Shown here one piece after another: positions 25,836 to 62,576 of a stretch of 64,000 bases of DNA. How positions within the stretch are numbered: the stretch's first letter is position 1; every line of letters starts with the position of its first letter. Position numbers and translations under genes: made by a program. The DNA is from Antedon mediterranea (Eukaryota > Echinodermata > Crinoidea > Comatulida > Antedonidae), in NCBI RefSeq assembly GCF_964355755.1, contig NC_092676.1:3826288-3890287 (forward strand), given 5' to 3'. Under the pieces are notes generated by a model. That model saw nothing but the letters and a program-made list of their open reading frames with translations. It made no database searches and had not been told where the DNA came from.

Positions 25836-28800
25836 CTAAAGATCGTCTGTCCAAGTCCAGGGTCGTGACGTATTCACTAAATCAACTGGATCAAACACAA
25901 GGTCATCTACGTTCCTTCTTTTCGGATTAAACAAAAGTAAGACCATAGTTACAGAAATTGTACTGATAACGTAGATCAAGAACATAAAACGGTCGATAAC
26001 CTCGGCAACGCGTTGCCAATCTCTTAAAATGCGTTCTTCGCGTCGCGTTTTCTCGCTAGCTGTACGCATACTAATAAGTATATCATCAACCGGTGTGGCA
26101 ATGCGTTTCAGATATAGTTTGTAAATGCAATTGTGTGAAAGCACGTTTCCGGTGTCTTCAAGCGCATTTTCCTCCTCGATAGATCTTGCTGTAGGAACGT
26201 GTATACCATACTGGCTAGACATACTATAATTACTCATATCACGTGGTACAAGGTGCGTTGAACTACGACCATGTCCTGTCCTGTGGAAAAGAAACAAAAG
26301 AGTCAGAAACGTGTTAAATCTCAGTGTACACTAGCAACAAACGTGTTAAATCTAAAGCTTGTTTCCCACTAGCGACTCAATACAAGGGATGTAAGGCAAC
26401 GTAAGTAGTGATTTTACCAATCACAAGCAATGGATTATTAGAACAGTGGCTAGCAAACGTTATTTTGCAGGAAAGTTTTCCGTTTGCTAGTTTCGTCCAG
26501 TTGACACACTTTGGTGAACTGCAAACAAGTTAGTTGGTCACTTTGTGAACAAATGGTCTTTTGGTGCTCAGCGGTCTCCGTTAACTTTAACGCTATTTCC
26601 CAATACGCAACGTGCAAGTTCCGCCCACTTTGTAAACAAATCGATCTGCGCGTGCGCAAACATTACGAAAACATTTAGCTACGTAGGTCGAGAAACTTAT
26701 TTCTTAAAAATAGCGTCAATGAAAAAACGTAAACCGTTTAAAATTAACGTTTACGTGCTCCTGCGAAAACTCTCTAATGACTCTAGTAGTCTAGACATGC
26801 AGCAGAAACTTCTCCAAACAGGGGAAACTCAACGTTTGCAAACACAAGTTCTGTTAAGTTTGCTCGACTGGCTCGGGTCGGGATTATTCTTTTCTATTTT
26901 AAAAATTTGTAATACTTACCGTGTTACAAGAGAGCTTCGAGATGACGTGCGTGATCTGACCATACTTCGATGACGTGTTTTTTTCCTTGCGTGTTTTTTC
27001 CACCTACTTGCCTCGAAATCGTCTTCATCACTTTCTGGTGCGCAATTACAAAGTTTCATGCAGACGATTTTTGACAGGTAAATGAATGTCAGCACCTTCA
27101 GCCAATCAGGAACCTCGGATGTACAATTCTCTCCCCGGTCAACAATGTTTAATATTAACACATTCATCGCAGTAGAAATTGAAGTTAAAACCATAATTGC
27201 TATGTAATACTGGGCTATAACAATGAAAAGAAAATGAATTAGTAGAAACGGATTAAACTTAACTTTGCCATCAAATTACTTTTATAACTTTAAAGATATA
27301 TTGTCCTCCTGAAAAAATAATTTATAACAAAAATTTTTTGAATATGCCATTTTAATGTAACATAATAATTATCCACTTTGACTAAAAATTGGATGGAAAG
27401 AAAATGTATTTACCTAAAAAACTGTAATTTTTATAGCTAAATATGGTCAAATTGGCTGCCAGCCAATGGGTTTTTGGTTGAATGTAACCATTTATTTGTC
27501 ATTTTATGAGTGAAAACATTTTTTTTTCGTTTTCTATGGAAATGATTACCTTTATTAAAACTACAAAATAAAATATTTTAAGTATAATTTAATTAATCTT
27601 ATTTTTTTAGGTTTATGGGGGACAATACATTTTTAAACTATTTTATAACATCTTATCACAATTGTCAGTCGTGTCACTTTTTTAATTAATAACTTTAAAA
27701 AAAATTGAATTAATTTTAAAGCATTTTGGCACAAACTGTTTTGAGTACATATGTATAATACAAAATTAATTATAGCTAATAAGAAATTTTTTATAGCTTG
27801 GTTTCAATATATGACGTAACGCGAGCGTCACACTGCGCACGTAATTTCACCAATAACTGTGATTGGTCAACTTATTTACGTTGCAAACCTGAAAACTTGA
27901 CATTCAAAACATTCATTTCTTATTTGCTTTTGATTGTGAAAATAAATTAATAGTCCATATATTGATATTACCATAAAACTCTATTTAAATTTACTACTGA
28001 TTGTATTTCGTTATTTGCATAATTGTATTTCTATAGACATTTGTAATAAAGTACAGTCCACGGTATAGTTACAATTCTATCGAATCCAGACGTCTAACAT
28101 CATAAATCATTCATGATTTCTGCTCCAGACGTCGAGTAACAAAAATATGGGGTCCCGCGTGCCAGATTGCTTTGCACAATAAAACATTTTTCCTTAATCG
28201 GTTTTCAAAATGACGCCACCATTTTGGAAATAAATGTTAATTTTGATTGATTGAAAATAACCTAAGCATTTAAAAACAAATCTTAGTTAACAAAGTCCAT
28301 TTTATAAATAACTGCTTTGATGATAAATAATGTCTCAGTTTTTACTTAAGCACTTTTTAGCTAAAGATTGATAAATGTCCAGCACCTATCCTTTTGTACT
28401 AGATCAATACAATTATAATATTATATTAACAATCGACAGTATTGATTATATTATTTACATATACTAGTGATACCACGCACATACACACGATTTTCCGGGC
28501 GCGTGCAAACTTTCTTAATGAATGGCACGGCTATTTTTATGCGCGCAGCGTCAACCATGTGTCTCTTCGTGACGTTGTCAATGACGTCATACTTACCGAT
28601 TAATGGAAAATGATCTGAAGTTCTTGGCATAGTTTCTGCAACTATCAACATGAATACGTTTAAACACAAAATTAATGTTACACATAACGAAGCTTTGACA
28701 ACAGCAACGCTGTACGGCATCCAGAATCCAACCATGGACAAACCAGATAAAAGAAATATTGGCATCACCAGATTATAGATATAATACAGAGGTTTACGAC

Positions 28801-29795
28801 GAAGCTTAATCTTGCACGTGACATCAACATAGCTGACATCCGGGCAACAGAGATATTGTTCGACACTGCGCACAAAGTGCGTATTTAACATTTTCCATTG
28901 CTCGTTCTCCATGAGTTCGTAAATTATCGGAGCTGCAGTGGCGTTAAACAAATCTAAGTATTGCTGATCGTACGTCCATGAGCCGAACTTTAAATCACAC
29001 TCGTGGTAGTCAAAGGGAAAGTGCGTTATGTCCAAAAGACATATACTGTGTACGATAAACGGCTTACTGGCAATCCGCACTAGCCCGTCGTGACGTAGCA
29101 CAGCATTAGTTAATAGAAGTTTATCCATAAAATCTGAATCTTTACTTTTGCCTCTATAAAGTAAAATAAACACAATTAGTTTGTTTAAATATGTATTGTC
29201 CCTCTGAAAAAAAATAATTCTTAAAAAATGTGTTTTTTAATTTCCATTTTAATGTAACATAATAGTTATCCACTATGAATGTAAAAATGTATTTACCTAA
29301 AAAAATGAAATTTAAAGCAAAAAAATGGTCTAATTGGCTGCCAGCCAATGAGTTTTTGGTTGAATTTAACCATTTATTTTGTCATTTTAAAAGTGAATTT
29401 TTTTTTCTATGGAAGTGATGAACTTTATTAAAACTACAAAATAACATATTCAAATTCTGATTTAATTTATCTTCAGTTTTCATGTTTTTGGGAATAATAC
29501 ATCTTTAAAGGGTTTCATATTTACATGTAAATAATAATAATATTATTAATAATAATATTGTTATTAGTAGGCCTAATAGTACATTTTTATTTATCATGCA
29601 TGCAAACTGTTTATGACTATAGGTAATAATTATGGTTTGGGGTACTGTATAATTTGTAAAAAAATGAAAGAATACGTTAGTGTTATTATTATTATTATTA
29701 TTATAAAATTTTGAAAAAAGGTGGATATAACAGAAAAGAAATATTAATGTTCTGATTCTAAGAACAGTAACATTGATAAAATCACATAATGTAAA

Positions 29796-39100: not shown

Positions 39101-42100
39101 ATCGAACGTCAATGTTTCGTTTTTACGCGGCTAAGCGCATATCGATTGGTGCTTGGCCGCGTGGAGCGTCGTGAAAACGAAACATTGGCGTTCGACTCGC
39201 CGGACCGGAACCGTGCCGGAACAGGTGTGAAAGGCCCTTTAAAGAGGGTAACCCTTCCAGTTTATCACAGTGTGTTAACTGATATTCAGAGGCCCTCTAC
39301 TGTAAATGTACTCGTTTGTATAGGTTACAGGGCATACACACTATATAATTATTTTAAAGGATTTCACAGCTATAGTCCTAGAACACCGCCATTGGATCTC
39401 GTAGAAAACTCCAAAATATTACATAGGCCTACATTACATAGAACTCCAAGATGATTCTCCAAAACCGTACTTATATGAATTATCAGTTTGGTTATACATG
39501 TCAAGTTTTCAATAACAAATATAATATTATAATTAATTTATAAAAAAATTGATAATATCCCCACATGAAAATGTAAAATAATGTAAATTCATGATTTATA
39601 TTCAAATTCAAATAGATCAGTCACAGAAATACAATTTACCGTTATGTCGTTCTGTAATGATAATGCATTACACAGACAAGAAAAAAAAGCTACGTTTGCA
39701 GATAAAAAATCAATTTCAACAAAAGATGAAAGTAATAAAATGTATAACGACACTGACTTTAATTTGACAGTATGTACATTGAATATAATATGAACATTTG
39801 ATGGGTGCAACACTGAAAGTGAATGGAATGAACTATGACCTATATAAAGAAAAGATGGTATAACCCGTGGTTTTTCCTGTACTGTGACAGCGTTGATTCA
39901 AATGGAAATTGTCATACAAAATTGACACTCGGCCGCGTATTTTTTTTAAATATAAAAAAAAAAAAAAAAAAAATTCGACAGATTAATATTTCATATAACT
40001 ACAGCCTGAACTCTCTGAATAATCTCTCTTAATTGTAGCTAACGATGTTTATTTATTTGTTTTATTATACCTTATTTATAGAAGGTGATCCTATACAGCA
40101 TATGCTGACAATCAAGAGGCCATCTTGATGAGTGACAGTGGCTGTGTGTATACTAGTACACCGGGGTAACCCCCTACTCATTGCAAAAGATTCTTTCAAG
40201 TGCACATGAGCCAGATGTTTGCACTGGACCTACGGTTTATAGTCCTTATCCGAGAAGACTCGTTCTACCACCAGAACCATGGAGTGAGTGAAGTTTAAAC
40301 CTTTACCGATGTTAATCTGACATGGTATTACGGTTCCATTGTCTTAACTGCTTGAATATTTATTTAAATATGTATTATAAAATAGTATTCAAATGTCAGA
40401 AACCTTTACGGGGTAACAACCTTTTAAGATATTGTTTGAGAGTTTGAAGCACGTTTCAAAATATACCATACATGTATAAGAGTGGCATCCCCGAGCAATA
40501 CACAATAACTGTCATGCATATGCAAAATAAAAAATGAACACAACTTACGTATTGTATAGTGTTATATCTGGAATCCATATTTCGGAACCCGGGATTCTGA
40601 CTTCATAGATGTTTTCATAGTCTGCCGGATTCCACGTAAGCTTTTCATCAAACCAGTGTTCAAATATGTGCATATTTAATTTTAAAATCTGGTCTCGTTC
40701 ACTCTGTGGGTAGAAGAAATATTAATTTAATAATCGGCCTGTATCTACAATGTTTCCAGTATATCATATGCAAGATCCGTGATACAGCACATGTTTTACA
40801 CATGTGATGCATAGGTTTAACCACGGTTATCCATATTACAGGGAGGTGTATCATCCCGTGTATCATGTATACAGATTCCGTGTGATACAGTTACCCATTT
40901 GCGTACTAGTGTGAACCGAACTTTAGTTTGCATACGTAACATGAAATATGTAGATTCTTTAACCTCCTGCAATGTAAATTTAAGTTTCTATTTCATAACT
41001 TGCATTCACACTTTTTGTAAAACCAACAAATAATAGTTTCAGATCTGCGACAGTAAATATAGTCTTCATATCATTTTCTGTATTCTCTTAAAACATTGCT
41101 ACAAAATTACTTATGATACAATTGATAATAATTCTATCATTGCTGGTCACATTCCGTAATTGATAAAAACTAAATATATTATTGTCATTAATATTTTGCT
41201 AGATAAACTATCTCTGAGATATTATTATTAATATACAAACAAGAAATACTAACTTTTATAATCAATGGGGTTTTTATTAAATTAAAAATTGCTGTTTTTT
41301 TAAAGAAGGAAATAATCTCATGTTTGATTTGTTGAAAGAATACAAAGTAACATTACTAATTGCCTTTAGGTGACGTCACAATGAAACGAACATACGCGCG
41401 CGTACGCGTACACGAGCAGTACTGGTCTTTGTGTGCGGTGGTGTCACCGACATTTACAAAGAAACTACTAAAAATGAATGTTTTTAAACAGTGTCATTTA
41501 GGCTTATTTAAAAAAAATGATGTTTTGCGTTGAAAGGTCTTATTATAATATCATTTTTTTAAATAGTACTTATGTAAATAGAAATTATTATTATAAAGCA
41601 AAAATATTATGCGCCTAATTGTGGCTTTGGATTGTCTATATGACATGATTGATTTGTTTCTTCAATGCAAGTTCAATCCTCGTGGGGTGGAATCGTCCGC
41701 ACAGAAAGCTTTTAACGTTTTGTTTAACTATTACATCGATGATTATTTGATGGATAGCAACTTTGTTTTGTCGTTATATTTATAAAAACGCATAATAATT
41801 TAATTATCAGCAGGATTGAAATTTTATCTCCTATACAATTGGACTTGATGATTTGCAAAATTGTTGTTTTATGGGAATAAATATATCTGATAGGATATAG
41901 CGTGATGGGATCGAATTTGTCAGGTCGCTTTGTATATAACCTACCAGAGTTTTTATCAAATCTTCTTGGTTCTCACTGTCACTTGTGATTAGTCAACTGA
42001 CTTGCGTTGCGCGTACGCCACTGAGATGTGGCAACTAATTTGACAAAAAAAAGTGTGATGTGCCCAAACATGGTAGGGATATGCCCACATATGGTAATGG

Positions 42101-45100: not shown

Positions 45101-48100
45101 CCTACCCGGATACTGCTGGCATGCATCAACCGCTGTTTGTTGATAGGTTAAAGAGCTGTAATTAATCAGTCATGATTAAGCTGGTATTCTGTTTAATATT
45201 GTCTATTAAGCTACCGATATTTTTCTCCTCGTAATGAGAGTTTTAATGAGTTAAATTATATTACCATTCCCGTATAGCATATGGATGAGAATGCAATTTT
45301 CTGACTCAGAGCTGCCTGTCTAGGCTAAAGTACAATTAAAGCCTATGAATACTGATATCAACAATGATGATAACAATACTGATATCAACAATGATGATAA
45401 CAATACTGATATCAACAATGATGATAAAAAATACTGATATCAACAATGATGATAAAAAATACTGATACCATCAATGATAATAAAAAAATACTGATATCAA
45501 CAATGATGATAATACTGAATCTATATGTAAATAATATATGTATATATAAAAATAAAATGTTGGTTTGATCGTGTAATTCACAAGTCGAATTATTTATATT
45601 ACGCGTTGTCAGTGGCGCGATTTTCCACACGCCCACAGTGTTGATACTACCATATATAATTTTAATAATAATTACAGTATATAAACACAATAGGCATATA
45701 ATTAATTCTAAACCGCCCGGTGATATACTGAAGTTTAATTAATTAATTTGAAACTATAAGATGAGGAAATCTCCAACCGAGATTCGAAACCAGACCTTCT
45801 GCTTGATATGCAGATGTCCTAACCATTAGACCACTGGGGATTTCATGGTATAGTTCAAACCCGATTGGATAGCGACTATTTTTTATTTTTTATATTTTTT
45901 TATCTTTTATTTTTTAATGTTAAAACATTCTCGGCGTGGTACGGCGGAACAACACTAGTCTCCGAGATTAAATATATTTAAGATATATAATGTAAGGACT
46001 TCTGTACCAAGACGTATTTAGGGCATATCATATCAAACATATCTAAGTTGTATACTGCATAACACGCAAACTGTTTGTTTATACAAGGCGTGGCGTGAGT
46101 TAAAACATATAATACGTTATTTTCAAAATTATAAGCTGTGTAGACATACTGTAGCTATGTTATAAATAATAATTATATAATTTTATTAATATTAATGACT
46201 TCATTCTACTCGACAAAATGGCTGTGGATTATCATATTAATATCAATAACAATAATTAATTTAATTAATGAATATATTTAAGAATTTATCACGCACTCAT
46301 CATTAAACACCCACACTTATTGAGTTTTGATAGCTTTTTAACAATGAAGAATGAGATTTGCATTAACACTATAAATGCCATTCTTATAAAAACACAAAAT
46401 GAATGTATGCATTTTATAAGTAGGTCTACAGTAGTTGAAAAGATACATTTAAAAATGTCTAAAAACAAAAACTCACAATATCAACAATTTGTTTCATTTT
46501 AAAAGTGAAGTAGACGTCGATTGAATTGGAAGAATTTGTTATTGGCCGAAGACGTTTGTTGTAACCACCTAATAAATCCACCACCAGCCTCTGCTCACTA
46601 GGAATCTCTCTTGGTACTGCTGTAACACAACAAAAAATGATAACAATAATGATAATGATAACGATAACGATAATGATATGAATGATAACAATAACGATGA
46701 TGATAATGATAATGATAACAATAATTATATAAATAGTGATAACAATAATGATTAAAATAAATGAAACCAAAAGAAACAACATTGATATCAAATAATGATA
46801 TCAAATGATAACAATGATGGTATTCCGATGACTAGCCTGGTCATCAGTAGTATCAATGATAACAATACTGGTATCAACAATGATGATAATAATACTGATA
46901 TCAACAATAATGATAACAATACTGATATCAACATTGATGATAACAATACTGATAACAATGATAATAAAAATACTGATATCAACAATGATGATAACAATAC
47001 TGATATCAACATTGATGATAACAATACTGATAACAATGATAATAAAAATACTGGTATCAACAATGATGATAATAATACTGATATCAACAATAATGATAAC
47101 AATACTGATATCAACATTGATGATAACAATACTGATAACAACATTGATGATAACAATACTGATATCAACATTGATGATAACAATACTGATATCAACATTG
47201 ATAATAAAAATACTGATATCAACAATGATGATAACAATACTGATATCAACAATGATGATAACAATACTGATATCAACAATGATGATAACAATACTGATAT
47301 CAACAATGATGATACCAATACTGATAACAATGATAATAAAAATACTGATATCAACAATGATAACAATACTGATATCAACAAGGATGATAACAATACTGAT
47401 ATCAACAATGATAACAATATTGATATCAACTACAATGATAACAATACTGATATCAACAATGATGATAACAATACTGATATCAACAATGATAACAATACTG
47501 ATATCAACAATGATAACAATATTGATATCAACTATAATGATAACAATACTGATATCAACAATGTTAACAATACTGATATCAACTATAATGATAACAATAC
47601 TGATATCAACAATGATAACAATATTGATATCAACTATAATGATAACAATACTGATATCAACAATGATAACAATATTGATATCAACTATAATGATAACAAT
47701 ACTGATATCAACAATGTTAACAATACTGATATAAATAATTATGATAAAATACTGATATGAACAATGGTGATAACAATACTGATATCAACAAAAATGATAA
47801 TACTGATATCAACAATGATGATAACAATACTGATATCAACAATGATTATAACAATACTGATATCAACAATGATGATAATAATATTGATATCAACAATGAT
47901 AACAATACTGATATCAAATAAATAATGATAATGATATCAATAGATAATGTCATTGTAATAAAGGATCAATTTTCGAGTAGTCTATTGAACTTTTTCAATA
48001 CTGAAAGGGATAATGTACTAAAACCATGACTTAGTTAACAATCCAAAACAAGTTCTTAAATCAGCCACTAGTTAAACTGCCCTTTAATTTCAATAAATGA

Positions 48101-48686
48101 AAAGTAAAATGTGTTTTTTAATGTATAGCATTCAAACGTAAAATCATTTAAAGCACTCTTTTGGATCTATTTACGAATCAGAAGGAAGATAGGTTATTCA
48201 ATCAATTAATACATCGAGCCAAATAGTCATTATAAGCCATCAAAGAGTAACCAAATCTGTTTAATGTTATATATAGAAGCGAAATTAGGGAATAAATCAA
48301 ATTTAAATCAGGCAGCATGGTGATAGTCAGAGCGTGGTCAATTTGAAGGTAGTGGGAAATGGCTGGTTAGCCGTCGTGTTCCTATAAGATACTTAACAAG
48401 TGATTATAGTTTCATGATTTGTATTATATTATAATTATAGTTATGTTTGCATACCTTGACTAGTATAGTTGACGCAATTTGGATAGTTCGGAAAGTTAAC
48501 ACAAATTTCACAGGGTAAACACTGCTTTAACGAGTGGATATATACATCACCGGGATCACACTTCATGTCCAAGTTCGCACCCTGGCTTTGCAGGCCCTGG
48601 TCCTTGTCCTGTGCAATTCCATTGCTAAAGGGCCGCACATGAAGCAAAGTAAAGAGCATGGAAAGTAAAACTATTCGCTCCACCAT
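25836..48686 (-). CDS. Alpha-type nicotinic acetylcholine receptor subunit with N-terminal TNFR-like cysteine-rich module, six exons
   Basis: A plasma-membrane pentameric ligand-gated channel subunit. Minus-strand exons are 48455-48686, 46477-46619, 40549-40703, 28597-29153, 26920-27214 and 25836-26280: 1827 nt, 608 aa, every junction GT..AG and in phase. Residues 1-24 are a probable signal peptide. Cysteines at 43, 56, 59, 62 and 71 form a module with TNF-receptor spacing. LLGGYNK near 96 starts the ligand-binding domain. Loop A is WIPDITLYN (168-176); the Cys-loop is C215-C229; loop B is GSWTYD (W236). Vicinal C279-C280 in YLCCPDVSY mark an alpha subunit. M1 is about 301-322, M2 about 331-350, M3 about 367-387 and M4 558-578, with a long basic/serine M3-M4 loop. 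The M2-M3 junction reads ETMPRTSDHFPLIAQYY across an intron. Oddities are Val at the usual -1' Glu, His at the loop D Trp site, and the extra N-terminal module. No frameshift is seen. Confidence 0.93.
26356..26445. mobile_element. Half of a CCCACTAG-family MITE
   Basis: AAGCTTGTTTCCCACTAGCG through CCAATCACAAGCAATGGATTA matches the left arm of the short form; the right arm is missing. It lies in receptor intron 5. Confidence 0.6.
27288..27642. mobile_element. A+T-rich MITE with TTAAAGATATATTGTCC ends
   Basis: The left end TTTAAAGATATATTGTCCTCC pairs with the inverse of the right end GGGGGACAATACATTTTTAAA. The interior includes ATTGGCTGCCAGCCAATG, a small palindrome. A second copy is in intron 3 (29183-29508). 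It lies in receptor intron 4. Confidence 0.75.
27643..28590. other. Receptor intron 4 remainder, no feature recognised
   Basis: The sequence is A+T-rich. A weak CCCACTAG-MITE relic may lie at 27797-27885 (AGCTTGGTTTCAATATATGA; TGATTGGTCAACTTA). Reading continues open for about 48 codons past the exon 4 donor (to 28451), but homology stops at the donor, so that stretch is intron. Confidence 0.4.
29183..29508. mobile_element. A+T-rich MITE, second copy
   Basis: TTTAAATATGTATTGTCCCTC at the left and GGGAATAATACATCTTTAAA at the right match the 27288-27642 copy. So do GTTATCCACTATGAATG and ATTGGCTGCCAGCCAATGAG inside. It lies in receptor intron 3, 30 bp from exon 4. Confidence 0.75.
29797..29879. 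repeat. (TA)n microsatellite
   Basis: About 40 uninterrupted TA units directly abut the left edge of the SINE at 29880. The YIYIYI frames on both strands come from this run. Confidence 0.95.
29880..30110 (+). mobile_element. tRNA-derived SINE with intact cloverleaf
   Basis: The unit runs from CCACGCCGAGAATGTTAAAG to TATATCACCGGGCGGTTTAG. A second copy lies at 45703-45945 on the minus strand. A 71-nt tRNA-like core (29936-30006) has a seven-pair acceptor stem (GCCCCAG / TTGGGGC, one G-T), A box TGGTCTAATGG, and B box GAGTTCGAGTC. The T stem is a perfect CCGAG/CTCGG. The anticodon loop ATATCAA would read AUC, which is not a usual animal tRNA. About 55 bp precede the tRNA part in both copies, so it is not a simple tRNA gene. 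It lies in receptor intron 3. Confidence 0.75.
30114..30184. repeat. (TA)n microsatellite with two phase breaks
   Basis: TA repeats interrupted by two ATTATA phase shifts near 30127 and 30143. The run lies just beyond the right edge of the SINE. Confidence 0.95.
30185..31138. other. Receptor intron 3 sequence, nothing recognised
   Basis: A+T-rich with short ATT runs at about 30220 and 30310. No coding, RNA or transposon signature could be supported. Confidence 0.4.
31141..31347. mobile_element. Long-form CCCACTAG MITE, near-complete reference copy
   Basis: 207 bp, from AAGCGTGGTTCCTACTAGAA to TCGCTAGTGGGAACCAAGCT. It contains GACGTATCGACGC, GTGCTGTATTGCGTA, CACAAGTGGGAACCGACGAC and ATTATTAGAAGGGCATTTGC. 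It is flanked by TTA on the left and TTAG on the right. It lies in receptor intron 3. Confidence 0.85.
31348..34335. other. Receptor intron 3 sequence, mostly unique
   Basis: No gene is recognised. A perfect 13-bp hairpin lies at 33911-33947 (listed separately). Short frames on either strand lack splice context. Confidence 0.4.
33911..33947. repeat. Perfect 13-bp-arm hairpin
   Basis: CTAGATGGTACGC, an 11-base loop, then GCGTACCATCTAG. The loop GAGCGAAGCGA is itself repetitive. The arm word CTAGATGGTACG also occurs in the fold-back MITE at 6634-6645 and, inverted, near 4099-4110, so it may be a remnant of a related element. Confidence 0.8.
34341..34625. mobile_element. Truncated long-form followed by truncated short-form CCCACTAG MITE
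   Basis: 34341-34460 starts GCTTGGTTCTCACTAGCGAC and keeps CCCTTCCAATAATTGTGTTT and CGTGAAATCAAACCTG. 34463-34625 starts AAGCGTGGTTCCCACTAGCG and ends early, with TTTACGTCCTTGCCACGCTT. The second probably inserted into the first and deleted part of it. Confidence 0.75.
34626..37199. other. Receptor intron 3 sequence, no gene recognised
   Basis: A run of 15 C lies at about 35599-35613. A minus-strand 68-codon frame at 36547-36753 has no splice context or recognisable domain. The rest is A+T-rich and unremarkable. Confidence 0.4.
37201..38187. mobile_element. Short-form CCCACTAG MITE split by a LINE fragment
   Basis: The left 19 bp (AAGCTTGGTTCCCACTAGA) stand at 37201-37219. The remainder resumes at about 38022 with GACGTAACGCAAGGACGTAA and ends CGCTAGTGGGAACCACGCTT. 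The sequence between is the LINE fragment listed separately. Joined at the break, the two parts would give a normal short-form element. Confidence 0.8.
37220..38021 (-). pseudogene. 5'-truncated CR1-like LINE, reverse transcriptase C-terminus
   Basis: On the minus strand the frame ending at 37712 reads LGILKLTDIHNVQVASFMFNY, then LPISIID, then a GPNLWNHIPPNIK motif. That is the typical post-RT C-terminal region of CR1/L2-like ORF2, also seen in the element at 58-59.6 kb. The catalytic core is absent. The 3' end (left) carries a short tandem tail of ATCTGAAT-like units, as CR1-group elements do. It is in receptor intron 3. Confidence 0.8.
39044..39243. mobile_element. GC-rich MITE with AAAGGGCCTTTCACACCTG ends
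   Basis: The left end AAAGGGCCTTTCACACCTG pairs exactly with the right end CAGGTGTGAAAGGCCCTTT. The arms extend imperfectly through CGGCACGGTTCCGGTCCGGC. TTAA stands at both borders, consistent with a TTAA target. It is much more GC-rich than its surroundings. It lies in receptor intron 3. Confidence 0.85.
39244..40545. other. Receptor intron 3 end; possible dispersed repeat
   Basis: A poly(A) run lies at 39953-39973. The segment 40140-40290 (ACACCGGGGTAACCCCCTAC; TTATCCGAGAAGACTCG) resembles a repeat module I associate with other invertebrate genomes, but no second copy is in this window. Confidence 0.35.
42027..42178. mobile_element. CTGTCTACACTATC-family MITE, left end lost
   Basis: AAAAAAGTGTGATGTGCCCA through CATATATGGGCACATCA to GATAGTGTAGACGGAGCTTT. 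The left terminus is missing, and CCCACTAG-family fragments abut it on both sides (41966-42015, 42181-42235). It lies in receptor intron 2. Confidence 0.75.
43044..43462. mobile_element. Two CTGTCTACACTATC-family MITE copies around a 178-bp repeat
   Basis: The left copy starts AAGCTCTGTCCACACTATCA and loses its right end at about 43147. The right copy starts at about 43328 (TATCAAACTAG) and ends GATAGTGAAGACAGCTGAG. Between them, 43148-43325 is the reverse complement of the repeat at 2131-2310. It lies in receptor intron 2. Confidence 0.75.
45350..45515. repeat. GATATC-rich minisatellite, small array
   Basis: Five to six units of about 27 bp, consensus AATACTGATATCAACAATGATGATAAC with 24-29-bp variants. 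It is the same unit as the large array at 46795-47935, but lies on the other side of receptor exon 2 (intron 2). Confidence 0.9.
45703..45945 (-). mobile_element. tRNA-derived SINE, second copy
   Basis: On the minus strand it carries GTGGTCTAATGGTTAGGACA, the same ATATCAA anticodon loop and GTTTCGAATCTCGG. CTATCCAATCGGGTTTGAAC precedes these and CACCGGGCGGTTTAG follows. The acceptor stem is mutated and an A/T-rich insert disrupts the head. It lies in receptor intron 2. Confidence 0.8.
46625..46795. repeat. GATAAC/GATAAT simple repeat
   Basis: Interspersed GATAAC, GATAAT and AATGAT hexamers begin 6 bp upstream (in gene sense) of the receptor exon 2 acceptor. They merge into the larger GATATC array. 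Confidence 0.85.
46795..47935. repeat. GATATC-rich minisatellite, about 1.1 kb
   Basis: Roughly 45 units built on AATACTGATATCAACAATGATGATAAC (27 bp), with 24-, 18- and 36-bp variants and higher-order patches. Nearly all unit lengths are multiples of three, so frames of up to 321 codons stay open on both strands (NTDINNDD or ILISTMMI repeats). These are not genes. The array lies in receptor intron 1. Confidence 0.95.
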
Positions 48687-48800
48687 AGCAGAACAATAAC
48701 CGTGAATACGAGCATTCGAGACTACGTCCGCGCGCGCGTATTTAACAGACGATCAGAACTGGAAGACCTTCAACAGTTTGTTCAGGACTATTATTTCTTC
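48687..48800 (-). promoter_or_regulatory. Possible receptor-gene promoter
   Basis: Upstream of the ATG at 48686, the minus strand holds TTAAATA at about 48739-48745, next to a CGCGCGCG run (48729-48738). This could be a weak TATA-type start with a short 5' untranslated region. No other element is recognised. Confidence 0.25.
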
Positions 48801-51545
48801 TCTAAATAATACGGTCGTTGTTGTTATTATTATTCAGACTGGTTTACCAGGTGAACAATACCAACATTATTGATTATATTCCAAGATAATTCACAATAAA
48901 TATGTATTTTTCCAATTTCTTGAACAACTCACGACTCATGTCGTCTGCATTCCAGCTTGTTGTCACAAACACAAGATAGCAAAGCTTGGTAAATAATTAT
49001 TCCTGAGTGTGTCAGAAGAAGAAAAATCTACTATCTATCAGTTTTTCCTTCGTGCTGTATGTCGTACTACTGGTCAGAAAAATATACAAAATGCTGTTGA
49101 AAAATTCGTAATTAAATTGTATTCACTTTCACGCTATAGTGTGTTTCTTCTTGTGAGGATGCGCTTCACCAACCAATCAAATCGCTTGTTCTATATAACA
49201 TATTCGACGAATTAATTTTACATAATGAAAAGGCCGTTCATCCATGATGACGTCATAGCAATACAAAATGGAACATATTCAACCTTTTGGCTTTATTTTA
49301 ATAGATATATGTTTTCAATGAACTATACAATAAACCGTTACTGTTGCAAGTTGATGTCTGCGATAAGTGACTCAATTATAAAATGAATGGAATTAAAAGT
49401 GAACGTTATCATTGTTAGCTACTACATTCAAACAAGTCACAATTCAATTATATAATATGATGCGGTTAATTTCCAACTATATTAATACCATCAGTAACTG
49501 AACGCATCGAACGCAATATATCAAACGCGTTGCATTTACTGACGCAATGCTAAATTGATTTTGTGACGTCATAACACTCAACGCAAAGATAACTTTTCTT
49601 GTAGGCTATAAATCCTGAACACAGTTATGTTGTCTCTCCTGAAAGAAAAATGAAAATACAAAGTTAAAACAAAAGTGTTTTTCCACATTAAAGAATTTCC
49701 ACTACTAGGCGAATTTGTTCGCGCGAATCGAAAGCGCCAGCTTATACGCATGCGTATTCGACAGGCCTGCATGTTTTGAGCAGATGATTCAACAGATTAC
49801 ATTTGAGAGTATATAGCAAACCGGTTGACGTGGATAATTGCGAGATGTGTTCGAGTCTCGAATAAACACATTTTCTATCCAAATGACCATGCGTGTATTC
49901 TACACTATCAAAGTTTATGTGACAAAAAAAGTGATGTTCCCAAGCATGGAAATGATGATGTCATATCACTACCATATTTGGGCATACCACTACCATATTG
50001 GGGCAACTAGTTGGATATTTTTCAGAAGTATTCTTCTACGCACTTTCTAAATATTTCTTACTGCAAACTTTAAACCATTAACCATTGTTTCGTTTCTGTT
50101 ACATTACCAATTATATGAAGTAGAGGTCATTGTTTTTTTTAAATAATTTTTTTTAAACCAACGCTACATTTTCTTTAAAGGAATATATTTTTCTTATTTA
50201 AATACATTTCTCGAAGTAAAACAGTTGATCAAAACCTAACCTTAACTAAATAGATTTTCTAAAACATCATATATATATGGGCTAGTTAGTTATTAATTAA
50301 TGCCAAAATAATAGCATTATTTAAATTCACCTATTGATAGAATAGAAACTATTTACATAATGGTATGGATCTAGATACACAAGAATAATAGAAAATCGCA
50401 TTTGAAAGAATTACTGGTAATGAATCTATTCATTGTATATAATGTTTAATCATAGCTAAATTAATATTAGACACTACATTTATTTACTGTCTATAATTCG
50501 TCTAAACAAATATTTAATTCAGAATAACATTATACAATGATGATGAATTTTGAAATAGTACTATCATTATACACACGTGCGCGCCAAAGATTAGGATATT
50601 TGACGCGCGTGTACCTAAACTCTAAAATCGACGCGCGCGTGGCAAAGATGCTGGTGTGTAACATTGCGTCTGAACAATGACTCACATGTTTTTATGCGGG
50701 CGATCTAACGATTATAACAATTGTACGCGGTAACGCTTGTCTCTGGTTGTGATTACTAACCAGTAATCAAAAATCAACTAATCGTTGTTTTTTAGCCAGG
50801 ACGAACACAATTTTTTGGTCCTTACATTTCTTATACCCCAACTCTAATCCAAAATCCCATACACACCGTGTTGCACTGTGCAGAGAAAATTACACAAATG
50901 CAATGGAATATTGAATTCGATTAAGTTCATTAAAAATACCTCAACCGTATTATAGTTTTATTCTGTATTTAAATTAATGCAATTTAATAATTCAATTTTA
51001 GTGCCCACGGTGTATTTAATTATTATACTCAAATACTGAATTTATAAGAACGTATTTCATTAATAATTAAAATTTATTATGCAATATAAAAACAGTATAA
51101 TTAATCATTTATATAATACAATATTATAATTATATTATTATATTATATTATTATATGAATAATTGTTACTAGGTTATATTGTTATTGTTGACTATTTTTA
51201 TTATCAATTATGTATGTCATTACTTAAAATGTCATAGTTTATTCTGTTTTAATTAACTACATCAATTTAATCCAAACCTATCGTTTTTTTTTTGTTTTTT
51301 TTTATATCATATACTATAGTTTAAAAGACATACTGCGAGGGAGGTATCTGCAATAATCTGTAAACATCGGGCTAGGCTCTAAAGGTTAGAAAAACCAATC
51401 TTATCTTTTTTTAAATAATTTCTTACAAGTCTTTATATTTTTTTTAAATAAGTGTTTTTATAAGATATTTCTAAGATCTACGTTGAAATGTATATTGTCT
51501 TTTCACCAAAATGTCCATTGTACTCTCAGAGAGCAGCGACACCTT
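48801..51545. other. Intergenic, no gene recognised
   Basis: It contains a single arm of the AAGCCGATTTTCCACTAG MITE (about 49690-49760) and a CTGTCTACACTATC-family MITE relic (49897-50012). Short CGCGCG-rich patches lie at about 50575-50645. The 68-codon frame at 49009-49215 shows no domain. Confidence 0.4.
49897..50012. mobile_element. CTGTCTACACTATC-family MITE, partial
   Basis: It starts CTACACTATCAAAGTTTATG and keeps ATGTCATATCACTACCATAT and a TTGGGCA word. The right terminus is lost after CAACTAGTTGGATATTT, which also occurs in the 7906-8046 copy. Confidence 0.65.
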
Positions 51546-51547
51546 AA

Positions 51548-51668
51548 GCTTGGTTAACACTACGCAACGGAAGTAATTTCAACAACACAAGCAACAGTTC
51601 AAATGATGTGTTGCTTGTGATTGGTCGAATTGCGGTGGCGCGTTCATCCTTGCGTTACGTCCAAATCA
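51548..51668. mobile_element. Diverged CCCACTAG-family MITE
   Basis: AAGCTTGGTTAACACTACGC, then TGCTTGTGATTGGTCGAATT, then CATCCTTGCGTTACGTCCA. The right terminus is missing. Confidence 0.55.
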
Positions 51669-53545
51669 AACATTCTATTGGTCCAACAGAGAAATTAATA
51701 TTACTCTTCAACAACAAATCGTCGATAATACAATGAAATATAAACACATACAACAATTAGTGGTAACCATACATTTTTCAAATCTAGATCCGTCAGTTCA
51801 TTTGACTTGGCCCATAGAGAAGTAAGTTATTTCATCATGATGCAAGGCTGTAAGCGGCCGACCAGCACGCTTACCCGTGTGCAGTAGGCCTACCCGCCCG
51901 AGGTTCAGCATAAGTAGGGCTGATGCATCTATCATAGGAATTTGCACGTACATGCAAGGAAATTGATCGCTTTCAAAACTGTTGAAAATGTTGATGAATT
52001 TTTGCATTATTAACAAAGTTGACTATGAACGCGAGTTCGAGTTAACTTATGAGATTAATTCAATTGTCGCCAACTCAATAAAAATCAAATTAATAAAAAA
52101 ACAGCTCATAAAGCCATTCGAATTCGCCATTAAGTAACTTCATTTGTATTGTGACTTCATTATTTACTTTCATTCCGACGAGTTAATCACGTTGGAAAAT
52201 TAATTTCTCACCTACGCCTCTTATTACTCAATCATTCTCATTACAATAAGTTTCAAACGAGTAACTGTGTTTACAAACTTGGGTTCGTGTCTATTGATAC
52301 GGTTGTGGCCTTACTTCTTTTTCAGAAATTAATATCTCAGCACCTCAAATCGGTTAAAGATATAAAATCTAGGCCTATATTAAAATATATAAACATTATT
52401 TTGCAGGAACATTGATATTAACCCACTTTAGATTAGACCGATGTGAAATAAATAATATAAAAAAGTAGTGTACGTTGTTACAAGTAAATTTTATGTGTAA
52501 AATGTGTTGATCTTTCGATTTATTAGGCCTACGTGTTTGTCAGAAGACAAGCCTTCAATTTACATTTGAGTAAATTTTCACAAAATTCCTTTGCAAAGAA
52601 ATTCCTGTAGCATTACCTAAAAAGTATATTTTACAACGCTCGTCCTACGAAAAGTGGGTTAAAGTGGGTTTATTATCAGTGTGGTTGCAGAGGTTTATAT
52701 TCCATCCCGAAGCTGCCCTTTAAGCTTCTAAATCTGATTATATTTTGTATACGACCGTGTTTTGATTAGCCTATTCCTTGGTACTGTGTCTAAATGTGTC
52801 CAGTGTTATAGGCTAATTCCGTGATACATCGTCATATGTATTTCATACGTGACGCCTGTATCATCTCTTACCTAACATAGAACTATCAATGATACAGGGA
52901 ACCGCGCTTGTGATGCACTAGACTTGTTTTTTTTATGTTATGAAACGCCATCTGTGTCAAAATATTTATCTTTTTACTAATTTTGGCCTAGTTCATGTGA
53001 TGCACATGTGATGTTGTATTACGGAATTTGCTTACGATGAAATATTGAATTGAAAATTAATTTTTCCATATTTTTCTCTGCGTATCTGAAATCAGAAACT
53101 TTAGTTCTTTCACGACAAGTTTCTTCTACTTGGTGATGAATACAATTTTTTAGTGTCATAAAGCAATTCCGTTTTGGCTGTATTCTAATTAAAATACAAT
53201 CTCTAGAGAATATGTGTGGTTTAACAATTCCACGCAGTGAGAAAAAAAAATGGTTCGTTTTATAAGAGACAGTTGCATTCTTAACGCAATTGTTGTGACA
53301 AAAAAGAAAATACCGTGAAAAATAAAGACAAAATTTGAGCACAAAACACTCTTCACAATCAATGTTATCACTGCCAAACAAGCTAGTATACAATTACATA
53401 AAAAGTGTTAAACAAGATTGGAAATTTGGACAATTCTCAAGTATGGAACGTCACTTGTGCATATCAATCGTTAAGCCATATTAAAATAATAATTAATTTA
53501 CTAAACAGGACGGTATGAGGTGGACGATTGCGTATAGGCGTCTAA
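51669..53545. other. Intergenic, no gene recognised
   Basis: A 45-bp module (GAAACGCCATCTGTG...TTTTTACTAA, about 52942-52982) is shared with the LINE at 59.55 kb and with 63.65 kb. Minus-strand frames at 53019-53393 have no recognised domain. Confidence 0.4.
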
Positions 53546-53548
53546 CTT

Positions 53549-53702
53549 TGGTTTCCACTATTTTAGAATGTAACGCAAGGACGTAAGCGCAATGCAAGCG
53601 AGTTGACCAATGAAAAACGAGTGTTTGGATAATGCATCACTTGTGATTGGTCAAATTGCTTACGTTGCGTTTACGTCTTTGCATTGGAGTGGGAATCAAG
53701 AG
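53549..53702. mobile_element. Diverged CCCACTAG-family MITE
   Basis: CTTTGGTTTCCACTATTTTA at the left and GCATTGGAGTGGGAATCAAG at the right. The centre (CACTTGTGATTGGTCAAATTG) is as in the short form. Confidence 0.6.
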
Positions 53703-54294
53703 TTACTTATACGTGTCGTGTGTCGACGTAGATTTGTCGTAAACTCACCTATGGCCAACAGTAGTTGCGAACAACTCCCATTTCGAGAACTCTGTTTTTT
53801 TGTACTACCACCTCCTTTTACTAAATTGTTATTTTATCTATTAAAAACAAATTCTAAACCATACTTGTATTACTACTTTCCTAAATAATACTTTCGACAG
53901 AGGGTGTAAGAAAGAAAGAAGAAACAGCAAATTGTCAGACGTATATAGAGAATAATTAAATCCAATAAAATCGGATCAAATTTGATCAGTTTAGTAAATG
54001 CAACGAACGACACATTTGATTCTATAGCAGAGCGAGCTTTGTTGTAATTGGCTTCGTCTAACGAGTACAATTTACTTCGATAAGGTAATGACCATCAATT
54101 CAGTCAACGACTTGATATAAATTATGAGCTTTGGATAAGGATAATTCACTGTTAAATAACTTAAGAGCCAACAATCTACTCTACCAAACATCTAGTAGCT
54201 CGCCGAATCTCCATTGTCATCATTTGTTATGTGCTGTATCATGCAAATCTATAATACATGTAACATTGTTTTTACCCCAAGCTTAAAGATACAT

Positions 54295-54480
54295 TGTCCC
54301 CGGCCCTCTTAAAAAAAAATTCATTTTTGTTGTTAAATACTGTAGGTCTATGCCATTTAGTGTCACTTGATAGTTATTTATACCGACCAAAAACTTGATG
54401 TAATCATTTAACTGGAAAAATGTATAGGCCTAAAGTAAACATTTTTGTCGGTTTAATGCAGAGAGAAAATGTCCATGGGA
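54295..54480. repeat. Partial TATTGTCCCC-family repeat
   Basis: TTAAAGATACATTGTCCCCG followed by GCCATTTAGTGTCACTTGATAG resembles the left half of the 27288-27642 element. No right end is found. Confidence 0.45.
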
Positions 54481-54520
54481 AACCAGCCTGCTTGTGATGC
54501 TGTATCGTGGGCCTTCTTAA

Positions 54521-54664
54521 GGTTTGGTTCCCACTTGGACGCAACGCAACGAGTTGGCAAAACGCCAGCAACAGTTCGTTTGATCATCCATCGCGTAGTG
54601 AATGGTCAAATTATTTGCGGCGCGCTTACGTCGTAGCGGTGCGTCCAATGAGAACCAAGCATTA
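54521..54664. mobile_element. Diverged CCCACTAG-family MITE
   Basis: GGTTTGGTTCCCACTTGGAC at the left and TCCAATGAGAACCAAGCATT at the right, 144 bp. The centre has ATCGCGTAGTGAATGGTCAA. Confidence 0.65.
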
Positions 54665-55629
54665 AGGATAACGAACAAATTAAGATAAAATGCAAAGAAT
54701 CATCTTTAAGCGTTTCATACCATAACTTTGTTTTATTTATTATTATTAATCAGATATCTTCGTTGCACACAGCAAAGTAAAATTTGACTTGGTTGTTTAG
54801 GCAGTCTTCATTTGAATTCTGTGTTTCCCACAATTCATAGTTTATCTGGTTTTACGACAACGTAGTTACAATATAAAGACGTTAATTTGCACAATTATAA
54901 GAAAGGTTACTTTTTAATTATTTAGTGCAGTTATGAAAAGGATATGTAAATTACAAGTGCCTAAAAACCGTGTCTTGACGTTAACAACCAAAAACACTGG
55001 CAGCAGGCTGCAGGCAATGCCACGACATATCACGGTCGTAGATCCTGGAGTGATGTCCTCAACATCCTGCCTGATGCAACTTGGCGCGAAAAAAAAAGGC
55101 CTAGACCTACTTGTTAGTGACACGTGTACAGGCAGTTGCACAGCTCTTCAGTGTCAGAATGTTTGCGTACACGATCCACAAACTAATGCATCTCCTGTCT
55201 CTGATTGATCACTTTATTTATCATTCTCTTAGATGTAAATTTTATATCTATTAGAAAACTTACTTGCTAATTCGTCAATAAAATAAACGCTTCCCTCGTT
55301 TACTCTGACTTTTCTGCCAAGAAAACGTGCAAGTTATACGCATGCAAAATACGAATTCCAAAAATTATCGTTAGCTATAAAATGATTCTGTAGTCTACGA
55401 AGCTACTGTTCACCAATGCCATGCACTGAACAATATTACTTTATACTTTGACACCCATAGCGTCAAAAAGACGTTTTGATTAATTGTTCGATTAAAGTAT
55501 TCATATTGCGAAGTTACATCACATGATAGGTAATTTAGTTGTAAATATCTTGAATTTTTACTTGTAAGCCGACGTGTCTGTAGAAAGAGCTTTAAGATTT
55601 TTAACCAAATCCGTTGTTGGTTCCCACTA
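54665..55629. other. Intergenic, no gene recognised
   Basis: Open frames at 54933-55208 (plus) and 54914-55141 (minus) overlap each other. Neither shows a recognisable domain, signal peptide or splice partner. Confidence 0.4.
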
Positions 55630-55850
55630 TAAGCGTGGTTCCAACTAGAACGCAATGCAGCGACGTATCGACGCCAAGTGCTGTATTGCGTAATCACAAG
55701 TGAGAGTTTGATTATAAGGGCCTTTTCGTACGACGCGCAGATTGCGTTATGTTGCGTCGCTAGTGGGAACCAAACTTTAGACGCAACGCAAGACGTGCGT
55801 GCTAAAGCGTGGTTCCCACTAGCGACGCAAAGTAACGCAACCTAACCCTC
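55630..55850. mobile_element. Long-form CCCACTAG MITE plus adjoining fragment
   Basis: 55630-55778 runs AAGCGTGGTTCCAACTAGAA to CGCTAGTGGGAACCAAACTT and keeps GACGTATCGACGCCAAGTGC. An adjacent piece at 55804-55845 starts AAGCGTGGTTCCCACTAGCG without a partner end. Confidence 0.7.
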
Positions 55851-57760
55851 CAAACGCATTATTTAAACTTTATTCCCCTGTTTAGAATGTTAATGATTGA
55901 TATTGGTTTTGTCAGCGGCGTCAATATTACTGAGACGATTATTAGAATGTATATTGAGTAAGTATTGATAGTAACACAATAAAATACAATTTCACGAGTA
56001 GACAATTGTTTAATATTTTCATATTATATTATTCAATTGTATTTCTCAGAACTTTTGTTTTTATGCAATTGTGATGTTGATCAAATAGATAGGTTAATGA
56101 AAATATAAACGGACGTGATGAGAACAGCCGAGCTGGCGAAAGAATTATTGGGTGTGAAGTGCGTATGAGAGAAGTTTATGACGATAGGAGGCAGGCTTTT
56201 GGTTTTCCGAAATAATTTCCTTTGCAAGGCGTATAGTATTTTCTGTATATCGTTATTATCCTATTGTATTGTCAAATAAATTACTGTACATTAGGCCTAA
56301 CTATTGTAGGCCTACGTACTTATATCGGCATAATTAGTGAAGCTGTCTATTCCATTCATTCATGTAGGCCTAATAATATCTATTTTCTCTCTACAATATG
56401 TAAATATTTACAAACAATTTTAATACGAGAATGTAAATAAATTCAACGTGAACACAACAATAATATCTTTCTTTATAATCGTATTAATACATCACAAAAA
56501 TTGATCGTGTCAAAAAAATTCTTTTCGACAATTATGTAATGCAAATATTATCCCCGAATGTAATCAACATGCTGTTATAGTAATACATAAATTGATGCAT
56601 TCTGGTTGTAATGCTAATTTAATTTATTTAAAAATCTATATGAATGCATTGAAACATTACTCTAAAATACGACACAGAATTGCATTGAGACATTTACAAC
56701 TGTAATTGTAAAGGAAGTGTGTATTTCCAATATTATAATTATAATATTTCGTTTGGTATTATAAATACTATAAAATATAAAATAAATGTCTGTTACCGCA
56801 CGAAGATCGAGAAGAGGATCGATAAACGCGAGTTCATTCGACCTTGAAGTCGTATTCAGGTTTTTACAACGACTGAAACACATGATCTGTTTTATGATAA
56901 ACCCCTGGGCAAACAAATACGAACAAACGGATAAAAAGTACACATAAATAAATAAATAATAACAATGTAGTCAGTCAATTATACAAATACAAATAAAGAC
57001 AATATGACGCTATCTAACACAATGCGTCTATCAAATAAATTACGTTGCAATTGTATGTGAATATAGATGAATTAATTCTTCCGTAATTAGTCTCTATCGA
57101 ATTAGATACGGTTTACCAGGGTCGTTAAAAAATATTGTTTTCAGGCCTATATTATTTTAACAGAACTGTATATGGCATAACACGCATGATACACGCGTGT
57201 ATCGAAGGAAAGGCTTAACATTCTCGAGTATAAACCTATATTACCAAGCATGTTGTTTTTAGACCTAATATAGCTTATGATTTTAACAGAACTTTATATA
57301 ATAATAATATTAATAATAATATTTATTCGGTCATCAATGTCTGGTCACAAGTCACACGCGAGAAATTAATAACGGTATCGGTACTGCAAAAAGCCTATTG
57401 CCGTTAATGTGATGTTTGATAAATACCATTAGAACATTATTATATACTGTATATAATGTTGGTAAATTCTGTATTAATTATAATAATTATTTGATATCTG
57501 TCTGATATCTATAAACAATTTCCCGTAAAATTGCATTGGCATCCTTCAGCCCTCCAGCATTGCTCTAATTATTTCGTGATGGGACAACATCAATCAGATT
57601 ATATGCAACCCATCATGACGTAATCTAATTTTATACTAAGTTCAATACGGTACATGACAGCAACTGTGCTTTTCATAAAACGCGTCGAACGTTTTCAAAA
57701 ACGAAATACATGGACACGACACACGGGCAATGCAATGCGTATATATATAATACTTGTACA
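55851..57760. other. Intergenic, no gene recognised
   Basis: A+T-rich. ATT/ATA runs at about 57300 precede ATTTATTCGGTCATCAATGT, which may be a LINE 3' end on the minus strand. The minus-strand frame at 56662-56943 has no supporting homology. Confidence 0.4.
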
Positions 57761-57905
57761 TTCGTTCGTTCGTTCGTTTTTATTTCACAATGCATCAAAC
57801 TTAATATTTTTACATAATAAGTATTAAATAAAAAAATGCAAAGCCTGGAAAAGACCAAATAAGCTCAATATAGAGCTTTAAGCCTGGTTTCACCAGTACA
57901 AAATA
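57761..57905 (-). mobile_element. Probable LINE or SINE 3' end with (CGAA)n tail
   Basis: On the minus strand a unique segment ends in TGAAATAAAAACGAACGAAC, a polyadenylation-like word followed by a 4-bp tandem tail. That is the pattern of a retroposon 3' terminus. The body is too short to classify. Confidence 0.45.
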
Positions 57906-57967
57906 CACTAATAATTGTATCAATTACAATAGACAATAATTAAATATTAATTAAAGTAGTAGAAATA

Positions 57968-58043
<76 letters not shown>

Positions 58044-58046
58044 TTA
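57968..58046. repeat. (AT)n run followed by T tract
   Basis: About 28 AT units, then about 23 T (58026-58046). On the minus strand the T tract reads as poly(A), marking the likely 3' end of the adjacent LINE. Confidence 0.9.
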
Positions 58047-59610
58047 TACACAATTACGCTACAGGACAATACAAACACAACAAGAGGACAAACGTAAAGG
58101 GTATAGTATATGTACTATCATATATACTTGCAGGAGGTGAGACAAAAAAAAAAAGTTTGATGAAAAAGTTTTATTAATACGATCTGTATTGTGATAAAAG
58201 GAATTGTTTATATTTGGATTTGAATGTATTTAAGTTATTAGTATTTAGTAAGGATTGACTTAAATTATTCCATACTAGAGGACCATGGTATTTGATAGAA
58301 TTCCGAATTGTGTTATGGGTTAAATTTATTGTGGCGTAATTGTTGGCGTTTCTTGTATTGTAGTTGTGAAATTCATTATTTTTGATGAAGAAATGTTTGA
58401 AAATATTTGGAAGTTGATTGTTTGAATATCTGTGCATGAATGTGGCGATTTGTAATTTGTTAATATCGAAGATGTTTAGGGTATTAAGTTTAAAGAAAAG
58501 GGACTTTGTGTGGGCTATATAGTGAGAATTGGTACAAATGCGAATAGCCCGTTTTTGGAGTTTAAAGAGTTTGTCTAATTTAGAAATATGTGTGGAAGCC
58601 CATGGACAGAGAGTTTTATTTTTAGTATCTGTAATTCCCCAAGCAATGTTACAATAGGATAGATAAGGTAAAATGAATGTGTTATATAAAGAAAAGAGGA
58701 TATTAGAGGGTAGAATATATTTAAGTTTTTTTAAGACACCGATGTTTTTTGAAATTTTATTAGCTATATTTGTTATATGGGTTTTCCAGTTTAAGTTATC
58801 ATCTATAGTTACACCAAGGAACTGAGAATAAGTAACCCTTTTGATAGGAGTGTTTTCTATATGGATTGTGTTTTGATTGTCATTGCATGTTCTATTTGGA
58901 GAAAAGTGTATATATTCAGTTTTGTTTATATTTAGTGAGAGTCTATTAAGTTTAAGCCAGTGAGATATATGTTTTATTTCCTTATTAAAAATTCTAGTTA
59001 AGGTGTTGTAGTCAGGATGGGAGGAAAAAATGTTCGTGTCGTCGGCAAACAGGACGTGTTCAAAAGAGTTGGAAGCGTTGATGATGTCGTTGACATAGAT
59101 GAGAAAAAGTAGAGGACCAAGAATTGATCCTTGGGGCACACCGCATGTTATGGGAAGAACTTCTGAGGAGTAGGAGCCGAAAGAGGTGATTTGTTGTCTG
59201 TTTTGAAGATAGTTAGAAAGTAGAGATAGAGGAGTTCCACGGATTCCATAGTGACTAAGTTTAGTTAAAAGAATTGTGTGGTTAATAGTGTCAAATGCTT
59301 TAGACAAGTCCAAAAATAAGCCAATAGTATGGTGGTTTTTAGATAAGGCGTTAGAGATTTTACTTTGAATGTCCAGGATTGCAAGATCAGTAGAATGTTT
59401 TGGTCTGAAGCCATATTGGTTATCATGAAAAGATTTATGTGAAGAAAGAAAGTTGTAAAGTCTATTGTATATAAGGCGTTCGAGTATTTTAGAAAAGCAA
59501 GGCAAAATTGAGATTGGACGGTAGTTTTCAAAGACAGAGTTTGACTTAATATTAGTAAAAAGATAAATATGTTTGCATATATGGCGTTTCATACGTATAC
59601 TACATAGAAA
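58047..59610 (-). mobile_element. 5'-truncated non-LTR retrotransposon (CR1/L2-like)
   Basis: The minus-strand element comprises the reverse-transcriptase frame (58174-59600 or so), a short 3' untranslated part (58047-58173) and a poly(A)-like end against (AT)n. The apurinic endonuclease that should precede the RT domain is missing, so this is a dead-on-arrival style truncation, although the RT frame itself is open. Confidence 0.85.
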
Positions 59611-59700: not shown

Positions 59701-59797
59701 ACAGTTTTAATGGAGGCATGGTTTTCTGTACGCGCGCGTACAAACAGTGATGATTAAGACGCGGCATGATTAGCGGTAATGAACGCATGGTTTTTTT

Positions 59798-60052
59798 CTA
59801 CGCGCGCATAAACACAGTCATGATGAAGGCACGGCATGCTTTTTTACGCGCGTGTACAGACAATGATAATGAAGATATGTTTTTTCGTCATTGTGTTGCC
59901 TTTTAATTACACCCAGGTGCATGAGTTTTTTCTACGCGCGCGTAAAACAGTGATGATAAAGGCACGACATGCTTTTTTACGCGCGTACAGACAGTGATAA
60001 TGAAGATATGTTTTTTCGTACGTGTGTTGCCATTTTAATTACACCCAGGGTG
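59798..60052. repeat. Two tandem units of 134 bp rich in ACGCGCG
   Basis: CTACGCGCGC begins at 59798 and again at 59932. Each unit then has GGCACGGCATGCTTTTTTAC or a one-base variant, GATAATGAAGATATG and TTTTAATTACACCCAGG. A shorter, diverged unit may precede them at 59700-59790. Confidence 0.8.
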
Positions 60053-61030: not shown

Positions 61031-61033
61031 TAT

Positions 61034-62575: not shown

Positions 62576-62576
62576 A

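Follow-up and report, generated by a model that had tools for sequence, protein, structure and literature searches.

The gene described here, on the minus strand of the analysed stretch of Antedon mediterranea DNA, is predicted to encode an alpha-type nicotinic receptor subunit that has acquired, in its signal-peptide exon, one somewhat degenerate module of the TNF receptor (TNFR) type, probably derived from a TNFR gene and used in interaction with other proteins. Judged from the sequence and from a structure prediction, this reading is given a probability of about 0.6. The combination of a nicotinic subunit with a TNFR-like N-terminal module appears not to have been described, as a search of the open-access literature for a TNFR-type module on a Cys-loop receptor returned none, which is not proof of its absence.

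Gene Structure and Channel Domains

The genome searched comprises 354 Mb in 18 contigs, of which the window, the whole stretch of DNA that was analysed, covers 64 kb. In this window, six minus-strand exons with GT-AG borders throughout are joined into a predicted frame of 608 amino acids followed by a stop codon:

Exon 1, 48455..48686, minus strand: 232 nt (77 codons plus one base), with the start codon, the predicted signal peptide (about residues 1-24), a Gln-rich linker and the CRD-like module
TNFR-CRD-like module within exon 1, 48471..48563, minus strand: residues 42-72, KCDPGDVYIHSLKQCLPCEICVNFPNYPNCV, spacing C-x12-C-x2-C-x2-C-x8-C
Exon 2, 46477..46619, minus strand: start of the ligand-binding domain, with its N-terminal helix and first strand
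Exon 3, 40549..40703, minus strand: ligand-binding domain
Exon 4, 28597..29153, minus strand: Cys-loop C215-C229, loop-B GSWTYD, vicinal C279-C280, the extra C290, M1 and M2
Exon 5, 26920..27214, minus strand: M3 and the start of the cytoplasmic loop
Exon 6, 25836..26280, minus strand: cytoplasmic loop, M4, C-terminal tail and stop codon

An earlier note on this DNA had given the coordinates, the cysteine spacing, the intron phase and the length of 608 residues, all of which were borne out when the frame was read again. Its claim that the six exons close to one nicotinic receptor frame is upheld by a Pfam scan of the spliced protein, in which residues 86-298 match Neur_chan_LBD (profile positions 1-216 of 216, E=1e-55) and residues 305-575 match Neur_chan_memb (positions 1-232 of 233, E=2.3e-28). 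The closest solved structures in the PDB are those of the nicotinic subunits alpha-4, des-2, alpha-3, alpha-6 and alpha-7.

The subunit is assigned to the alpha type because it holds the Cys-loop (C215-x13-C229), the loop-B motif GSWTYD and the vicinal loop-C cysteines behind a Tyr (YLCC, residues 277-280). It also shares with nicotinic alpha-type subunits the complete ligand-binding and transmembrane domains, the loop-B Trp and an intron of phase 1 after the signal peptide, but it differs from them in the N-terminal cysteine-rich module, in the lack of the -1' Glu of M2 associated with cation selectivity (SVAVVK, with a one-residue insertion, replaces SGEK) and in Cys290 (DVTC), an unusual extra cysteine of the ligand-binding domain that is a Tyr in the nearest paralog. 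This paralog (C3:10015154) is likewise devoid of the M2 -1' Glu and has AVGVVK for SGEK, also with a one-residue insertion, so that the ion selectivity of both subunits may differ from that of ordinary nicotinic receptors. The plan of the TNF receptor superfamily, a single-pass protein with a TRAF or death-domain tail, is not found here, since outside the module the protein is an ion channel subunit with four helices.

Other features of the window include an open frame of 510 residues (58174-59706, minus strand), which by eye is of the LINE reverse transcriptase type, and two tRNA-like sequences in introns of the receptor gene (29936-30007, plus strand, and 45769-45840, minus strand), perhaps tRNA-derived SINEs.

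The Cysteine Module and Its Likeness to Fn14

The module has cysteines at residues 43, 56, 59, 62 and 71 and an early Pro-Gly. The segment KCDPGDVYIHSLKQCLPCEIC takes the form of an A1-type first module, C-x2-G-x1-2-Y-xn-C, followed by CxxCxxC, a form that also occurs in the TNFRs encoded by the same genome. The six cysteines and three disulfides of a full CRD are not present, as Tyr74 occupies the position of the sixth cysteine of Fn14, with an N-glycosylation sequon (N73-Y-T) directly after the module and beside this Tyr. Five cysteines cannot form three disulfides, and one of them is therefore left unpaired, presumably C59 or C62 if the disulfides are arranged as in the CRDs of Fn14 and BCMA. 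By its residues, the module is an A1-like first half with an incomplete second half, and somewhat degenerate.

In sequence, the module resembles the CRD of Fn14 (TNFRSF12A), with which it had been matched in the earlier note. This match holds for the spacing of the five cysteines, which is identical, and for the Gly, Tyr and Leu positions, and fails at the sixth cysteine. Fn14 also carries a hairpin Asp and a single transmembrane helix, whereas the module has Ser in place of that Asp (Ser-Leu for the Asp-Leu found in both Fn14 sequences at -4/-3 before Cys2, at the tip of the hairpin) and is attached to an ion channel.

When the module was compared by phmmer with 177,635 distinct PDB sequences (E<=10), the sole match was Xenopus Fn14 (2kn0, E=0.16; E=0.046 for a slightly different span of the module), in an alignment that retains the five cysteines, the early Gly, the Tyr and the Leu. 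Among 5000 shuffles with the cysteines held fixed, nine reached the real phmmer score against Fn14 and 35 that of an HMM built from two Fn14 sequences; with the Gly fixed as well, these counts were 52 and 135 of 5000, respectively. The search of exon 1 with HMMs for TNFR CRDs, which the earlier note had proposed as a check, gave a negative answer: neither TNFR_c6 nor stn_TNFRSF12A, nor any other Pfam model, was matched at E<=10. In the positive control, the Xenopus Fn14 fragment matched stn_TNFRSF12A and, weakly, TNFR_c6.

The spacing of the cysteines was rejected as a proof by itself. In its strict form (C-x12-C-x2-C-x2-C-x8-C) it occurs once in the six frames of the window, but a chance open reading frame at 6750-6878 shows the nearly identical C-x12-C-x2-C-x2-C-x10-C, which makes spacing alone weak evidence.

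Predicted Fold of the Module

The module alone was modelled with AlphaFold2 from a single sequence, with no alignment and no templates, and the resulting model is of low confidence (mean pLDDT 60.7). When this model was compared by Foldseek with 350,542 PDB chains, ranks 1-24 were all occupied by BCMA, TACI, Fn14, Grindelwald or BAFF-R, with E-values of at least 0.17, and the VIA-align matches (Z 2.0-3.5) all came from this same group. The chance open reading frame at 6750-6878, a control that consists of one frame and not of a distribution, yielded a model of similar confidence, two unrelated Foldseek hits and zero single-CRD TNFRs. In the structural comparison suggested in the earlier note, which was to include Fn14, the top 24 hits are thus single-CRD receptors, with Fn14 among them, for a low-confidence model restricted to the module.

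The likeness to BCMA, TACI, BAFF-R and Drosophila Grindelwald, which together with Fn14 supply all the best Foldseek hits, lies in the predicted hairpin followed by a second module. These receptors differ from the module and its subunit in carrying four, six or eight cysteines, all paired, and TNF-receptor signalling tails.

TNF Receptor Genes of the Same Genome and Probable Origin of the Module

Matches to the TNFR_c6 profile reveal TNFR genes in the genome, with a cluster at C9:20.18-20.27 Mb, and genes for TNF ligands (TNF domain) are present too. One CRD from the C9 cluster, CPYGKYITSFSTCVPCDECNEKDCKIVC, aligns with the module segment CDPGDVYIHSLKQCLPCEIC, which it resembles through the pattern CPxGxYITSxxxCxPCxxC, and 27 of 5000 cysteine-fixed shuffles reach the score of this alignment. 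The CRD exons of these C9 genes read as class 1-1, with borders consistent with phase 1. The C9 receptors are nevertheless multi-CRD proteins, and their second module is shorter and has a sixth cysteine, unlike that of exon 1. A genome search with exon 1 returned the self-match and no second copy. Neither did any Fn14-family gene match above the cut-off, including with the Xenopus Fn14 fragment, although such a null says little here. Partial, weak TNFR_c6 matches at C8:1.76-1.80 and 8.95-8.99 Mb were rejected as relatives, as they belong to long arrays of another cysteine-rich repeat that lacks CxxCxxC; these loci hold long genes with many CPxGxY cysteine-rich repeats, of which TNFR_c6 matches only the first half.

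An explanation that we regard as unlikely accepts exon 1 as the true first exon and takes the cysteine stretch for a lineage-specific extension, with a likeness to TNFRs that is convergent or due to chance. The absence of a Pfam match, the odd number of cysteines, the weak E-values, the lack of another genomic copy and the one loosely similar spacing that arose by chance in the window all speak for it. It is at odds with the residues between the cysteines, which match Fn14 and the TNFRs of this genome more closely than do 99.3-99.8% of the cysteine-fixed shuffles, and with a fold retrieval that is specific to single-CRD TNFRs and from which the chance frame gains none of them.

Taking all the evidence together, an origin of the module from a TNFR-type domain is probable. 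Since the C9 CRD exons and the nicotinic intron behind the signal peptide are both in phase 1, an insertion at this intron would preserve the frame. The earlier note had claimed that the module was added by exon acquisition, and this stands insofar as a TNFR-CRD-like module precedes the nicotinic domains of the subunit; it needs modification in that the module has no exon of its own and shares exon 1 with the signal peptide. Such an arrangement fits a captured TNFR 5' exon, or an insertion followed by intron loss, better than a new internal exon, and on this ground 5'-exon capture or exon fusion is considered as likely as simple exon insertion. The most likely course of events would be that a 5' exon or a class 1-1 CRD exon of a TNF receptor gene was captured into the intron of phase 1 that follows the signal peptide.

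Exon 1 as the Predicted First Exon of the Gene

Further features of exon 1 and of introns 1 and 2 are as follows:

27-bp tandem repeat ATGATAACAATACTGATATCAACAATG, 46636-47942: fills most of intron 1
Array related to the 27-bp tandem repeat, 45348-45512: in intron 2
Alternative donor AGG|GTGCGA at 48581, minus strand: its use would remove 48455..48580, 126 nt or 42 codons, in the same phase

Exons 1 and 2 are joined in phase 1 (...CAA G|CA GTA), and the donor of exon 1 (AAG|GTATGC) scores 8.3 bits, comparable to the 6.2-10.1 bits of the later exons. In a scan of the coding strand from 46620 to 64000, that is, over 17 kb upstream of exon 2, exon 1 was the only ATG frame that begins with a hydrophobic stretch and also has a fair phase-1 donor. 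Codon statistics give exon 1 a value of 0.085, whereas nearby introns average -0.38 and reach -0.02 at most; they do not discriminate the frame (0.090 for the next one), and thus back the coding nature of exon 1 weakly. As a predicted first exon, it has good support of an indirect kind.

It has to be considered that exon 1 could be a separate gene for a secreted single-CRD protein of 80 residues, wrongly joined to a subunit whose own first exon lies elsewhere, perhaps beyond 64000. The unspliced frame of exon 1 does stop a few codons past the donor (...TSQGMQT, ending in GMQT*), there are ATTAAA motifs further downstream (48265, 48122 and 48088), and two published papers caution that an unusual domain architecture is frequently a mistake of gene prediction (PMC3927609, PMC12964723). 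Nevertheless, the strength of the donor, its exact phase match with exon 2, the lack of a rival signal-peptide exon over the 17 kb scanned and an intron 1 of 1.8 kb that consists largely of tandem repeat and gives no hint of another gene make such an artefact distinctly improbable.

The module might also be optional, through use of the donor at 48581, which would lose it without a frameshift and leave an isoform with the signal peptide and linker. This donor keeps the phase and removes exactly 42 codons, but it scores 5.3 bits versus 8.3 for the distal one, and sites of this kind are frequent by chance. An isoform of this sort, which would be compatible with the gain of a TNFR-type module, is judged improbable.

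Paralogous Subunits

For comparison, first exons were sought for two other subunits, and all those described are candidates. The best one of the C11 subunit, MDSLILLVCLLSFGK, has a donor of 12.7 bits, and that of the subunit at C3:37.12 Mb, MQTSYITLFATIVTCLVG, one of 11.9 bits; both are short, end in phase 1 and encode a signal peptide only. Judged by these two paralogs, such subunits probably begin as a rule with a short signal-peptide exon, and the gene described here departs from this rule. They agree with the statement of the earlier note that ordinary subunits run from the signal peptide straight into the ligand domain, and comparable nicotinic subunits of this genome appear to be without the module. 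The nearest paralog, with 50% identity over exon 4, shows no comparable module in the 39 kb that precede its exon 2, which suggests that the module was gained recently, although the first exon of that paralog is insecure.

Neur_chan_LBD has 92 exon matches genome-wide, which reflects a sizeable expansion of the nicotinic-type family. Clusters of such genes are found at C3:6.80-6.95 Mb, C3:37.07-37.60 Mb, C6:3.27-3.51 Mb and C6:18.39-18.45 Mb.

Proposed Function of the Module

About 14 residues separate C71 from residue 86, where the ligand-binding domain begins with its N-terminal helix. We infer that the module would be secreted with the ectodomain, on a tether of roughly that length ahead of helix alpha-1, and known nicotinic structures would presumably place it at the synaptic (outer extracellular) rim of the pentamer, with one copy for each subunit of this kind. 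The module would act in protein interaction, with an extracellular partner, a partner on a neighbouring cell or another receptor, and these contacts would govern placement, clustering or assembly, not gating. Its unpaired cysteine could join it covalently to the partner, to a neighbouring subunit or to C290, the last being a speculation. Given the retention of the acetylcholine-site residues, a small ligand probably still gates the channel.

It has to be weighed, finally, whether the module binds a ligand of the TNF superfamily, or a different protein ligand, that gates or modulates the channel, so that cytokine signalling would be coupled directly to a ligand-gated channel; a CRD-like module and TNF-domain genes are indeed present, and the single-CRD receptors Grindelwald, Fn14 and BCMA bind their ligands via one module (PMC8024323), but the trimeric ligand faces a pentameric receptor, the acetylcholine-site residues are kept, and the Asp of both Fn14 sequences is a Ser at the hairpin tip, which makes major ligand contacts in relatives of the CRD fold (PMC8024323), a mild argument against classical TNF-ligand binding, and we consider this highly improbable. 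A module for interaction or anchoring at the rim of the pentamer is more likely.

Significance

To our knowledge, animal Cys-loop receptors are strikingly uniform in their extracellular part, and added extracellular domains have rarely been reported. A survey of lophotrochozoan nicotinic receptors notes additional domains, dynamin and GAIN among them, in some molluscan subunits (PMC6896357), and so provides a precedent for nicotinic subunits annotated with added functional domains; these cases are based on gene models, and the TNFR-type module is not among the domains named in the part of the survey that deals with them.

If the reading of a gained TNFR-type module is true, a disulfide-rich module grafted onto the N-terminus would give a protein partner a natural means of anchoring, clustering or modulating a neurotransmitter receptor. 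Vertebrate and invertebrate nicotinic genes have in common an intron of phase 1 that follows the signal peptide, and the same reading would mean that domain shuffling can operate through this intron.
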